DNA of 64,000 nucleotides from Actinostola sp. cb2023 (taxonomy: Eukaryota; Cnidaria; Anthozoa; Actiniaria; Actinostolidae), in assembly GCA_033675265.1 (NCBI GenBank), contig JAUJYZ010000222.1:186001-250000 (forward strand), written 5' to 3'. The notes under the pieces are model-generated. The model did no database searches. It was not told the origin of the DNA and was given only the letters and a program-made list of their open reading frames with translations. The position numbers were made by a program, and so were the translations under genes. Shown piece after piece: positions 2,806-49,854 of the stretch. Positions within the stretch are counted from its first letter, which is position 1; each line of letters opens with the position of its first letter.

Positions 2806-3438
2806 TTTTTATAGTACACACCGTGGGAAAACCCCTTGGTCGTGTGTCATCGCTTGGAGTTATTTACAAACACCTATTATCTTGCAAGTACTTCAACCGT
2901 CCACAGAAAATACTCTCAACCAGGACCGTGGGAATGGTCTACGCTGATTGGCTAAAAGCTCCAGAGGTCGGTGGGTCGAGTGATTATGACAGAGTTTTTA
3001 TCGTCAGTGGGCAGGAAGGGTCGTGAGAACAGTTAACGGTGATTGGTTGATGGCGCTATGCGGAGAGCTGTACTTAATTAGTCGTGAGTCCACAAACGCC
3101 TATAATGAGCGAGTAAAATGCCTCGCGACCAACCGCGCATCCAAATGAGCAAACCTCCATTTTGTTTAGAAGTTTATTGGTAACACATTCTAAAATAGAC
3201 GCCTAATATACCATAAAATGTCCCAAATTATGTTGACATAGGCATAACCCCCGTCAGCCAACGTTGACTTTGAAACAGCATGTTCTATCCTTTAGTTCTA
3301 CAGAGTAACTACGTATTGTGTCGCTGTTGTCATTAGCTTACCAATGCATTGTTCAGACATCGAGTGGAGACGTTTGCATAAAGAAAGGAACTCTAAGCAA
3401 AAGTTGGCTTGGATTAGACTTCTAGTGGATTTCCCACG
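2806..3438 (-). promoter_or_regulatory. HES-A promoter: TATA, CSL sites, CSL+CCAAT composites
   Basis: A minus-strand TATAAAA (2807-2813) is followed upstream by CGTGGGAA at 2822-2829. A forkhead-like TATTTACAAACACC starts at 2861. CGTGGGAA at 2927-2934 is followed 11 bp later by GATTGG (2946-2951). CGTGAGAA at 3022-3029 is again followed 11 bp later by GATTGG (3041-3046). An inverted site, TTCCCACG, lies at 3431-3438. YGTGRGAA is the CSL/Su(H) consensus and GATTGG is an inverted CCAAT box. HES-C and HES-E share the layout, so Notch control is the likely role (inference). Confidence 0.75.
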
Positions 3439-3449
3439 GTATATAGTCT

Positions 3450-4455
3450 GGTGTGTGATTACCCGTGAAGAACTGTGGCGAGGTGATGATGGCGACATGA
3501 AAAGTAACAGATATCGTCGCTGATGGACAGCAATCAACACCTTCTTCGCATCTCTTTCACACAAACATCTAATGAACCTGAGGAGGATAAAGTATGAATC
3601 GACGTTTAACTGATGCAACGAATGCTACGCTGTTATCTTCGACATTTTACATTTATTTCAACAGTTATTAAAGTCAGGCGACCCTTATTTTCCAAATCTC
3701 TCTCTTTCTATTTGTACACCAAGGTGGCATTATTCACGAGTGATGGATTTTAAAGTTCCACAGACTTGTACTTGTACATGACTCCCGGGTGGCCATAACG
3801 TTGCATAACAAACCGGGTCATGAGATCATGCGAGACTTGCCTCAACACATTCCAATACACTAAAATCTCAGAAATCATGATAGTTATCGATTCATTGAAA
3901 ACTAGCCAAATGTGATACACTGTGATAAGCACTGAGTGCAGGAATTTGACTCGTAATTCTAAATTTGCACCAAATAATTAGTTGTCTTGGTTGTCATGGT
4001 TCAGAAACCGCAAGCTATGCGCAAATAACCCCGTCACTACCCCCAGTAAGTCTCCAATTGTGACATGTATGCCAATGAATAACACTAGCTATGAGAGAAG
4101 AAATGTTTGGCCATATGTTGTGAGGATATATTCTTTTAACGCTGCAGTTTTGAAATAATTATCTTGGTGCTATGTTAATTACTTGAATGCCTCTTTAATA
4201 GTGTCGTGATGGAATCTTGCAATGACAAGCGTGACGGGTCACCCTTTGTAACGGCGCATCTCAGACTAAAACAATACCTCATCACGTACAAGTCGGTAAC
4301 CCGATGTTTCTTCTGTAGTTGGAATCACTGAAAATGTCCCCTCTCCCTTATGTATATTGCATGCTCAAAAACGAACCCCACTCTCCCTGCTTCCTTGGTA
4401 ACCCAGGGACAGCGCCCCTTTTCTCCCGCCTCCCTTTCCCTCAGCCCCAGTGAGT
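3450..4455. other. Intergenic, no gene seen
   Basis: No open frame with family resemblance and no spliceable bHLH exon on either strand. The interval separates the HES-A upstream region from a minisatellite. Confidence 0.5.
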
Positions 4456-4763
4456 GGCCCCTGGGTGTCTGAGGAACCCCCTGGATTTCAGAGATGCCCC
4501 TGGGTTTCTGAGGAACCCCCTGGATTTCAGAGGAGCCCCTGGTTTTCAGAGGAGCCCCTGGGTTTCTGAGGAACCCCCTGGATTTCAGAGGAGCCCCTGG
4601 GTTTCTAAGGAACCCCCTGGTTTTCTGAGATGCCCCTGGTTTTCTAAGGAACCCCCTGGTTTTCTGAGATGCCCCTGGTTTTCTAAGGAACCCCCTGGTT
4701 TTCTGAGATGCCCCTGGATTTCTGAGGAGCCCCTGGTTTTCTGAGAGACTCTGGTTTTCTGAA
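4456..4763. repeat. Imperfect minisatellite, CCCCTGG(A/G/T)TTTCTGAGG type
   Basis: About 17 imperfect units of 18-21 bp built on CCCCTGG-TTTCTGAG(G/A). The unit lengths are mostly multiples of three, so frames stay open on both strands and give proline/glycine-rich pseudo-proteins. These are products of the repeat, not genes. Confidence 0.85.
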
Positions 4764-46725: not shown

Positions 46726-49157
46726 TCACCAGGGTCTCCACATAGTTGGTTCAGTTAGTGCTGGTGCTTTTGTTGTCGATTTAGCAATGCCTACAAAGCT
46801 CTTGATGTTCTTCTCCTGAGAATCCTGCACTATCATTTCGATGTTTTCGTTTTTGATAGGAGTAGGGGGCAGCGTTCCCAGCGTTGTTTTGTTCGAAGGC
46901 GAAGGTGGAGGCGATGGAATGGGAACCCATACGACGGTCGGTATGTTTGCGGTTGTTAGGTTCACTGGTGACGTCTGCAAAGCTGCGGTTGAATTTGGAA
47001 GAATAAAGGCAGGGGGGTGGGCATTGACGTGAGTGTTGCCATGGAAACCTACTGGAACATGTGCAAAGACTTTTCCATGCATTTGCATATCGTTGCGTTG
47101 AAGGAGTGTGGTGTTTGCAGTGTTCGACATGTTTCTCAATAGCTCTAGAGAGCACAGGTTGTAGCCTGCTCTGTACTCCGACCATGACAATGGAACTAAA
47201 AATCAAGATAATATTCACGTTAGAAGATCATCTTAATGATATTACACATTACAGTTAGAGAAAATAAGGCGCGGCTTAGCGAAGCCACGGATTAGGAAAG
47301 CCGCGATGGGTCCAAACCACCTGTGAGACGAGTTCGAAGTTGGTTGAAAATTTGCTATTTTGACCCATTTATATCGGTCATCATGGTCATTCGCCCCTTG
47401 TTTTTCTCTCGTATATTAATGGGCCTATTATCAATTGAGCCTAAATTTGCTAAGTTAGTGAGTAATTATCCTAATTAAGTTGAATTAGGTCCCAAAAAAT
47501 AATAATTTAAAAACGGATTCAAACACGTCTTAGATAAACTCCAAGTTTGTCAGTGTTTATACGAGGGCCCTTTGTTGACTTTCAAAATCACGAACGCGTA
47601 AAAACTGGGTGTGAACTTTTAATTTGTTTACATAATTATTTCAAAACTCAAAGGCTTTCTTTCCTTATATCGTCTTCAAGATTAATGATTTCGTTTTTAC
47701 TGACTTTATTATCCGATCAAAAAGATCGAGTTGAATATCCTCACCTCTTTTCGTTCGTCGTCCCTGCGAATTCATATCTCTTAGAAACTTCACCGTCATC
47801 TCGAGAATGTCAGCTTTCTCCATTTTAGAATACCGAGATACCTACAAGAGAAAGAGAGAGAAGCCAGTTAATAATAATAATTAGTATAATAGTTAGACGT
47901 ATCGTAAGGTTAATTGGACTTGTAAACTCGGCTGCAGCTAAAATATTTATGTTCTTCAGTTCGATCATGAGTGTATACGTAATCGTTGTAAAAATCAATT
48001 CGATGAAGCGAATTTTCCAAACTTTCTCAAAGTTACATCATTCCACAAACAAACAAACAAACAAATAAATAAATAAATAAAAAAATAAATAAATAAATAA
48101 ATAAATAAATAAATAAATAAATAAATAAATAAATAAATAAATAAGTAAATAAATAAGTAAATAAATAAGTAAGTAAGTAAATAAGTAAGTAAGTAAGTAA
48201 ATAAGTAAGTAAGTAAGTAAGTAAATAAGTAAGTAAGTAAGTAAGTAAATAAGTAAGTAAGTAAATAAATAAATAAATAAGTAAATAAATAAGTAAAAAA
48301 ATAAGTAAGTAAGTAAGTAAGTAAATAAGTAAGTAAGTAAATAAGTAAGTAAGTAAGTAAGTAAGTAAATAAATAAATAAATAAATAAATAAATAAATAA
48401 GTAAATAAATAAATAAATAAGTAAATAAGTAAGTAAATAAATAAATAAATAAATAAATAAATAAATAAGTAAATAAGTAAATAAATAAACTGTTGTGGTA
48501 ATGAGTTTGCACGGTTAAGATGACGTCATCATTGCATCACGGGACATAGTCGGTCAATTACGACCACATTTGATGATAATTAGCTTGTTATATGCTCTTT
48601 TCAAAGTCATTCTAGAAGATGGTCTAATATAAGAAATCAGTTCGCTATCTTGATATATCAGTGAGATGTATTTCTCTTCAAGAAAAACCCTGTTAACTGT
48701 TTTTTGTTTACGTCTGCACCGGTGGCAACGTCTACTCACATCTTTATTCAGAGATTCTAAGACGAGGACTTTCATCTCGTTTAAACTTGTGTTGATTCGG
48801 TCTCGTCGTAGTTTCTCCATCAGTGGTTTTTTGGTCTGAAATGAACAAGTATATAGTTTAATAAATCACGCTTTTATCCTTCATGATTATCAGTCATTAA
48901 CAGTCAGTGATTATCAGTCATATTTTTTTTTTATAAATCAAAGCAAAGTTTACTTGTTGATCGTAGCAATGTGCAATTGTGCTGTGTTTTTTTTCTCTCG
49001 ATCATTAAACGGGTGCATTGTTGTACGTACAAATTGTCTGAACTCAAAAACTATGACAAAATTATAAACTCACCTTCCTACGGTCGCTGACCATTTTGCC
49101 TACAAAATCATGCGACTCGATTAATGTTTGTGAATTACTGCTTTCTAGTGTAGCCAT
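46726..49157 (-). CDS. hes: HES-E: HES/E(spl)-type bHLH-Orange-WRPW repressor
   Basis: Predicted 248-aa nuclear repressor. Exons on the minus strand are 49157-49074, 48835-48740, 47841-47745 and 47195-46726, with GT-AG borders and phases 0, 0, 1. The basic region is TKKPLMEKLRRDRIN with the HES proline; helix 2 is [20 protein letters not shown]. The Orange domain (from about residue 98, YRAGYNLCSLELLRN) is weaker than in HES-A and C: the CAAE core has become CSLE. VWVPIPSPPPSP is shared with HES-C. It ends MWRPW. Intron 2 contains a 440-bp tetranucleotide repeat; intron 3 contains a GC-rich coral-type repeat fragment near 47270-47310. The start choice (MATLESSNSQ) gives an 84-nt first exon at the expected distance from the promoter. 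Confidence 0.9.
48046..48489. repeat. (AAAT)n/(AAGT)n microsatellite in HES-E intron 2
   Basis: About 440 bp of alternating AAAT and AAGT units with a few AAAC units at the left edge. A long frame on the minus strand (poly Leu/Tyr/Ile) is an artefact. Confidence 0.97.
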
Positions 49158-49225
49158 TTCTTCGCGAGGTGTTCACGCCTTCAGAGACAAGTGGCAAATG
49201 CTTCACCAACCGTATGCTCCAATGT

Positions 49226-49854
49226 GTATATTAGATTCTCCCGTGGGAAAAATGCTTCAGCTTTGAATCATCGATTTTAAATATTTGTAAACACTTCGTT
49301 AAAGACAATCATCATAACAGAGTCATACAATCAGCGATAGACTCCACAAAGCTTGGACCGTGGGAATGGCCACTTCCGATTGGCTATAATTGTATAGTCA
49401 CACGACATCTTTAAGAAACAAAGCACCAAAAAGCCCATCAGCGCGTGACGAGCGTGAGACTGTTTGATCCTGATTGGTTGGAATCTCACCGACCTTCTTC
49501 CTTAATTAGTTCAGAAATACGCCAATTGGAGTTAATAAAACGTCTTTTTTTCTTCTCAAAAGAAGACTCCAGGAACACTTTGGCGTCTAACAAGATTAAA
49601 CAAACTTCTTTGAGAGACAAAAAGACAAATAGTCATCAAACATGTTCGAGTTGATTTGAATTCAATGCGGCCGGTGAATGGTATTTTTCCTCGTTATGAT
49701 TCAATGTTGGTCAGACAGTTTTTTCACCACGTGTGGGTTTACAGAAATGGCTTTTGTGTCGCATTGTGTACAAAACTTTTCGATACTTTTTGTTCGGGGT
49801 CACGAGAGAAAGAAAAGCCATTAAAATGACAATACGCCGGTGGATTTTCCCACG
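49226..49854 (-). promoter_or_regulatory. HES-E promoter: CSL sites and CSL+CCAAT composites
   Basis: A TATA-like CTAATATAC (minus, near 49226-49234) is followed by CGTGGGAA at 49242-49249; ATATTTGTAAACACTT from 49281; CGTGGGAA at 49359-49366 then GATTGG at 49378-49383 (11-bp gap); CGTGAGAC at 49453-49460 then GATTGG at 49472-49477 (11-bp gap); and inverted TTCCCACG at 49847-49854. Confidence 0.75.

Follow-up and report, generated by a model that had tools for sequence, protein, structure and literature searches.

In a 64,000-nucleotide stretch of the genome of the sea anemone Actinostola sp. cb2023 (Cnidaria, Anthozoa; assembly GCA_033675265.1, contig JAUJYZ010000222.1, positions 186,001 to 250,000 of the forward strand; G000:C901:186001-250000, hereafter the window), the promoters of three HES-type genes, HES-A, HES-C and HES-E, carry a composite element in which a site of the type bound by CSL (Su(H)/RBPJ) is separated from a CCAAT box by exactly 11 bp. 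These motifs, their spacing, a large genome-wide excess of that spacing, and the location of the composite upstream of six HES-type genes and a few open reading frames (ORFs) of repeats are the observations reported here. Judged from the DNA, the composite is likely to be a promoter element on which CSL and NF-Y act cooperatively at HES genes, with Notch-dependent switching, and which would also be used by mobile repeats. We hold the existence of a constrained element to be more secure than this reading as a whole, and the Notch response to be less so.

A CSL/CCAAT Composite of Fixed Spacing

A first-pass annotation had placed six composites in the window, and all six were recovered at those positions, all on the plus strand, with no occurrence in 100 shuffled windows. 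As pattern matches, they are the following.

2927..2951, + strand: HES-A composite 1 (CSL-type site, 11 bp, GATTGG)
3022..3046, + strand: HES-A composite 2, 95 bp beyond composite 1
20589..20613, + strand: HES-C composite 1
20683..20707, + strand: HES-C composite 2, 94 bp beyond composite 1
49359..49383, + strand: HES-E composite 1
49453..49477, + strand: HES-E composite 2, 94 bp beyond composite 1

The 11-bp gap corresponds to 19 bp from start to start, and the step between the two composites of each promoter agrees with the 94–95 bp given by the annotation. HES-A, HES-C and HES-E lie on the minus strand, and in gene sense the element reads CCAATC-N11-TTCYCACG. Sites that strictly match YGTGRGAA are concentrated in these three promoters, which hold 10 of the 12 present in the window. 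The spacers had been described as unrelated, with spacing alone conserved; spacing is indeed the main conserved trait, but a weak sequence preference exists within the HES spacers as well. Over positions 2–9 of the ten HES spacers known in the assembly, pairwise identity is 36.7% against a shuffle mean of 25.2%, and 0 of 2000 shuffles reached as high a value.

Genome-Wide Excess of the 11-bp Spacer

An excess of the 11-bp spacer across the genome had been set beforehand as a check on the proposed rule, and a scan of the whole 424-Mb assembly, of which the window is a part, bore it out. The pattern YGTGRGAM-N11-GATTGG matched 928 times (464 forward and 464 reverse), against 7 matches (5 and 2) of the reversed-pattern control. 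Spacers of 0–10 bp, taken together, gave 153 matches (95 and 58; control 129, 64 and 65), and those of 12–30 bp gave 290 (148 and 142; control 164, 100 and 64), which amounts to about 14–15 matches for each other length and an approximately sixtyfold excess at 11 bp. Match counts within repeats are lower bounds. The listed matches of other lengths include satellite arrays, as well as copies of the same repeats in which the composite is slightly longer or shorter. The reversed-pattern and other-spacer counts, together with the shuffled windows, rule out a chance origin of the composites.

The spacer-11 matches listed in full are those of one sub-pattern (spacer position 9 not T), comprising 37 of the 928 (control 7). 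Twenty-three of these share one repeat spacer (one of them with a one-base change), two further spacers occur twice each, and 10 matches have unique spacers unlike those of the repeats. Six of these 10 are located in HES promoters, namely those of HES-A (two matches), HES-E, gene Z, and the HES-type genes on contigs C416 and C934.

HES-Type Genes with and without the Composite

Gene Z, on the same contig just before the window, is a fourth gene of the HES cluster and has two composites 94 bp apart, while the C416 and C934 matches lie upstream of HES-type bHLH exons on other contigs, with one composite each. The coding features found in the window, along with the promoter of HES-D, are listed below.

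938..1465, − strand: HES-A Orange-domain exon (open frame), PF07527, E=4e-16
2346..2450, − strand: HES-A bHLH exon (open frame), PF00010, E=1.8e-6
19302..19754, − strand: HES-C Orange-domain exon with WRPW end, PF07527, E=2.1e-11
20051..20206, − strand: HES-C bHLH exon (open frame), PF00010, E=8.9e-7
46729..47202, − strand: HES-E C-terminal exon with WRPW end, no Pfam match
48557..48865, − strand: HES-E bHLH exon (open frame), PF00010 match slightly below the curated cut-off, E=6.4e-4
41209..41307, + strand: HES-D promoter, with a pair of CCAATC motifs on the gene strand at a distance of 93 bp, neither having a CSL partner

All three of bHLH, Orange and WRPW are present in HES-C and gene Z. 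HES-A has bHLH and Orange, with no clean WRPW found; in HES-E, the weak bHLH match is accompanied by WRPW, and the Pfam scan found no Orange domain. The C416 gene combines a bHLH with a C-terminal WRPF, no Orange domain being found in the frame scanned, and C934:89067 is assigned to the HES type from its bHLH exon alone. The Pfam scan covered genes other than C901:438931, C901:385085 and C934:48494, and bHLH regions other than that of HES-B. A bHLH search with the HES-C exon returned ten matches, HES-B not among them; with HES-B counted as HES-type by eye, eleven HES-type genes are known in the assembly. The top six bHLH matches (HES-C, Z, HES-E, HES-A, C934:89067 and C416) are exactly the six of the eleven that carry the composite.

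In the other five (HES-B, HES-D, C901:438931, C901:385085 and C934:48494), none was found within the 2.3–3.2 kb examined, even when one CSL mismatch and spacers of 7–15 bp were allowed. HES-D, which has a CSL-type site at 40829, 380 bp upstream, gives the impression of having lost the CSL partners of its two CCAATC motifs. Over 327 bp, C934:48494 and its neighbour align with 94% identity; the alignment stops in the interval that separates the composite from the next CCAAT, which leaves this copy without the element. The fixed grammar that had been tied to HES promoters thus extends to three more HES-type genes, but it is absent from five of the eleven and is also present in repeats.

Layout of the Six HES Promoters

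All six carrier promoters contain CGTGRGAM, a CSL consensus in promoters of a Notch target gene family, and all ten of their composites match the NF-Y logo RRCCAATSR. In addition to its composites, each promoter contains two further CSL-type sites, one proximal and the other distal and inverted, those of the window genes being as follows.

2822..2829, + strand: HES-A promoter-proximal CSL-type site, beside a TATA-like box at ~2807-2813
3431..3438, − strand: HES-A distal CSL-type site, inverted
20474..20481, + strand: HES-C promoter-proximal CSL-type site
21053..21060, − strand: HES-C distal CSL-type site, inverted
49242..49249, + strand: HES-E promoter-proximal CSL-type site
49847..49854, − strand: HES-E distal CSL-type site, inverted

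With the CCAATC of the outermost composite taken as zero, the proximal site lies at +227 in Z, +217 in A, +226 in C, +228 in E, +373 in C416 and +209 in C934, and the inverted distal site at −483, −392, −353, −377, −261 and −192, respectively. One or two composites are located 105–356 bp upstream of the proximal CSL site, and the inverted site follows 192–483 bp upstream of the outermost composite; except for this distal site, the CSL sites of the six promoters share one direction. Gene Z shows the full cluster plan: beyond the proximal CSL site come the two composites, separated by the 94-bp step, and then the inverted distal CSL site. Z, A and C have a TATA-like box after the proximal CSL site; E, C416 and C934 have none there. 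CACGCG, which belongs to a class of site bound by HES proteins, is found at +30 in Z, C and E, where it could have a role in self-repression. In A, C and E, forkhead-like motifs (TGTTTGTAAA or TGTTTACAAA in gene sense) were also noted 174–184 bp inward of the outermost CCAAT, at 2863-2872, 20516-20525 and 49284-49293.

Outside short blocks, the flanks of the HES-A, HES-C and HES-E promoters have diverged, and the Z and E promoters align at 67% over 283 bp. Recent duplication, which the annotation had named as the alternative to a conserved rule, is ruled out by these alignments, and the promoters are old. The C416 and C934 promoters do not align to those of the cluster at 1e-5.

The Composite in Dispersed Repeats

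HES genes are not the only carriers of the element. Around hand-picked places among the listed spacer-11 matches, sequence was fetched in stretches of 10 kb (20 places) or 0.8 kb (20 places), and these 40 places, one automatic locus and the window constitute a non-random sample of 52 composites. Most of the copies examined sit in dispersed repeats: 39 instances fall into nine clusters of at least two members with alignable flanks, and 13 are singles, of which the window's HES sites make up six. These numbers rule out a single repeat family behind the whole signal. Several clusters have ATTTCAGG in common before the CSL site and may constitute one old group; counted as one, they leave at least five repeat groups with unalignable flanks. 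Best matches inside repeat families range from 74 to 100%, and the HES promoters have diverged almost past alignment, so the sampled repeat copies are younger.

A short ORF whose ATG lies 72–118 bp 3' of the end of the composite is present in two repeat families and at one single locus. The HIRAN-like ORF at L022 matches PF08797 at E=2.6e-4, under the curated cut-off, and the shorter HIRAN-like frame at L012 has no Pfam match. The two frames are identical at 27 of 45 residues, their upstream DNA is unalignable, and the start of CCAATC precedes the ATG by 96 and 111 bp; this pair repeats the HES pattern, with the spacing kept and the flanks lost, in another gene family. The ORF of the L009 family, shorter in other copies, gave no real Pfam match, and no convincing ORF was found in the most-sampled repeat family. 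Known RNA genes inside the repeats were ruled out by a search of Rfam, which gave 0 matches in eight 3-kb loci (L001-L008).

Several further arrangements were recorded. L012:4513-5478 is an inverted-repeat element with two copies of the composite and a truncated HIRAN-like frame between its arms. At L021:5001-5084, two composites 59 bp apart are flanked on one side by a Helitron-like PIF1-helicase ORF and on the other by an ORF that weakly matches an OB-fold. L027:4953-5138 is made up of 113-bp units in tandem; its CSL sites stand tail to tail at a distance of 17 bp, with NF-Y sites outside both, and one of the two composites of this array has a 17-bp spacer. In an array of ~130-bp units at G000:C92:62554-66480, CGTGAGAAC is joined directly to TGATTGG (spacer 2).

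Comparison with Known Elements

The sequence-paired site (SPS) of Hes1/Hes5 consists of two head-to-head CSL sites ~16 bp apart (PMC7685452). The composite resembles it in having strictly spaced CSL sites in HES promoters, with geometry setting the output, but the partner of its CSL site is a CCAAT box. The SPS also occurs in Drosophila E(spl) genes. No head-to-head CSL pair 5–30 bp apart was found in the six HES promoters, and SPS membership is thereby ruled out. The endoplasmic reticulum stress response element (ERSE) has the consensus CCAATN9CCACG, as given in PMC8219835, which cites a work on NF-Y and ATF6 by title. It likewise joins a CCAAT box to a CCACG half at a set distance and pairs NF-Y with a signal-driven factor; however, the distance from CCAAT to CCACG is 15 bp, not 9, in the CGTGGGAA composites, and the genes are HES genes rather than chaperones. 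Composite 2 and the C416 composite read CTCACG in place of CCACG, and with that variant and the 15-bp gap the element does not belong to the ERSE.

MHC class II X-Y boxes and SREBP/NF-Y sites are NF-Y elements of set geometry. TALE/NF-Y is another (PMC11802806). In all three, as proposed for the composite, NF-Y partners a specific factor at a preferred distance. The SPS+A of Drosophila E(spl) genes is a CSL code with a proneural bHLH as second factor, and the Notch-response code proposed here would similarly consist of CSL and a second factor, though NF-Y instead of a proneural bHLH. We know of no NF-Y element of set geometry with a CSL partner, and no CSL + NF-Y element was found in the open-licence literature, judged mostly by titles and the beginnings of abstracts. 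Strict spacing is already known for NF-Y composites (ERSE) and, separately, for CSL sites (SPS); the combination of the two is what was not found there.

Proposed Mechanism and Alternative Explanations

The following is a prediction as to which factors bind, how they cooperate, how the element responds to Notch and whether the repeats are expressed. CSL would occupy CGTGRGAA and the NF-Y trimer the CCAAT box, their fixed relative position allowing the proteins to touch or to share a cofactor. NF-Y, for which a logo of RRCCAATSR, a DNA bend of ~80 degrees and binding of LTR12 elements in mammals are described (PMC11802806), would keep the promoter open and bent, and on arrival of the Notch intracellular domain (NICD), CSL would turn the promoter from repressed to active. 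The 19-bp step is near two helical turns and might bring the proteins to nearly the same face of the DNA, although this is a guess, given the NF-Y bend. In mobile repeats, the element would most likely serve as a promoter working in the same cells as the HES genes.

Several points weigh against this proposal. Repeat copying inflates the count of 928, and five of the eleven HES-type genes are without the composite. The other four of the 10 unique-spacer matches (C407, C665, C1075 and C1261), as well as several single loci, have no traced gene, and the control value of 7 would cover those four by chance. The weak likeness among the HES spacers may reflect a third contact or common descent, which would explain part of the constancy. 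Moreover, one Nematostella study reports hes levels that were unchanged by SuH knock-down, dominant-negative SuH or NICD overexpression, and that were lowered by the inhibitor DAPT (PMC4335385).

It is also conceivable, though unlikely, that CSL and NF-Y bind a constitutive or repressed module without Notch input, kept for broad or germline expression, which would suit mobile elements also. The many repeat copies fit such a module, as do the NF-Y-bound LTR12 elements of mammals (PMC11802806); on the other hand, the single-copy instances that can be traced to ordinary host genes belong to HES genes, which are typical Notch targets, the others having no traced gene. That NF-Y binds the CCAAT half and a factor other than CSL binds TTCYCACG, with no Notch link, is distinctly unlikely. 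CSL is pointed to by the DNA motif alone, and the lack of a hes response to SuH or NICD (PMC4335385) would agree with another factor. However, the motif matches the RBPJ site as given in PMC7685452, strict sites cluster in the HES promoters of the window (10 of 12), NvHes2/3 fell three- to fourfold upon NvNotch knock-down in a second Nematostella study, whose data are termed inconclusive (PMC4631755), and HyHes of Hydra is reported to be directly targeted by NICD (PMC11565402).

We regard as improbable an origin in which a mobile element inserted upstream of an ancestral HES gene brought the composite with it. Element and spacing are identical in repeats and HES promoters, and CGGTCCATTCT, the spacer of the most-sampled repeat family, is close to the weak majority HES spacer, but no alignment running through the flanks links any of the six window composites to the remaining 46 instances, the promoters at L049, L051 and L052 do not align to the fetched repeat loci at 1e-5, and the sampled repeat copies are younger than the strongly diverged HES promoters. 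Shared descent of duplicated promoters with unconstrained spacing is very improbable, since, despite the Z/E alignment and the 94–95 bp step common to all four cluster genes, similarity in the flanks of A, C and E has otherwise disappeared, the C416 and C934 promoters do not align to the cluster, and repeat groups with unrelated flanks keep the same spacing.

Other Features of the Window

Tandem repeat frames of ~29 residues (LHLFTYLPYSMVYCESLLLTILTNLRKP) at 34612-37784, seen in the ORF list, form a minisatellite inside the HES cluster. By eye, an ORF at 6535-7674 on the plus strand resembles a LINE-type reverse transcriptase, and a single ORF at 56540-58594, also on the plus strand and adjoining the cluster, appears collagen-like, immunoglobulin-like and fibrinogen-like.

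Significance for Cnidarian Notch Signaling

The canonical status of Notch–CSL–HES signaling in cnidarians is disputed, one Nematostella study finding no such signaling and placing its origin in the bilaterian stem (PMC4335385), the other Nematostella work cited above reporting, with data it terms inconclusive, a drop of NvHes2/3 upon Notch knock-down, and that on Hydra a direct NICD target. The composite, defined and of fixed spacing, can be mutated in each of six HES promoters, which makes the question testable. It is possible, although we put it forward tentatively, that this animal employs a Notch-response code unlike the bilaterian paired site, with CSL locked to NF-Y at 11 bp, and that several unrelated groups of mobile elements have adopted it, so that hundreds of repeats would fire or be silenced with the HES genes in Notch-receiving progenitors. 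If the repeats do share the element, mobile elements would be using the grammar of developmental signaling.

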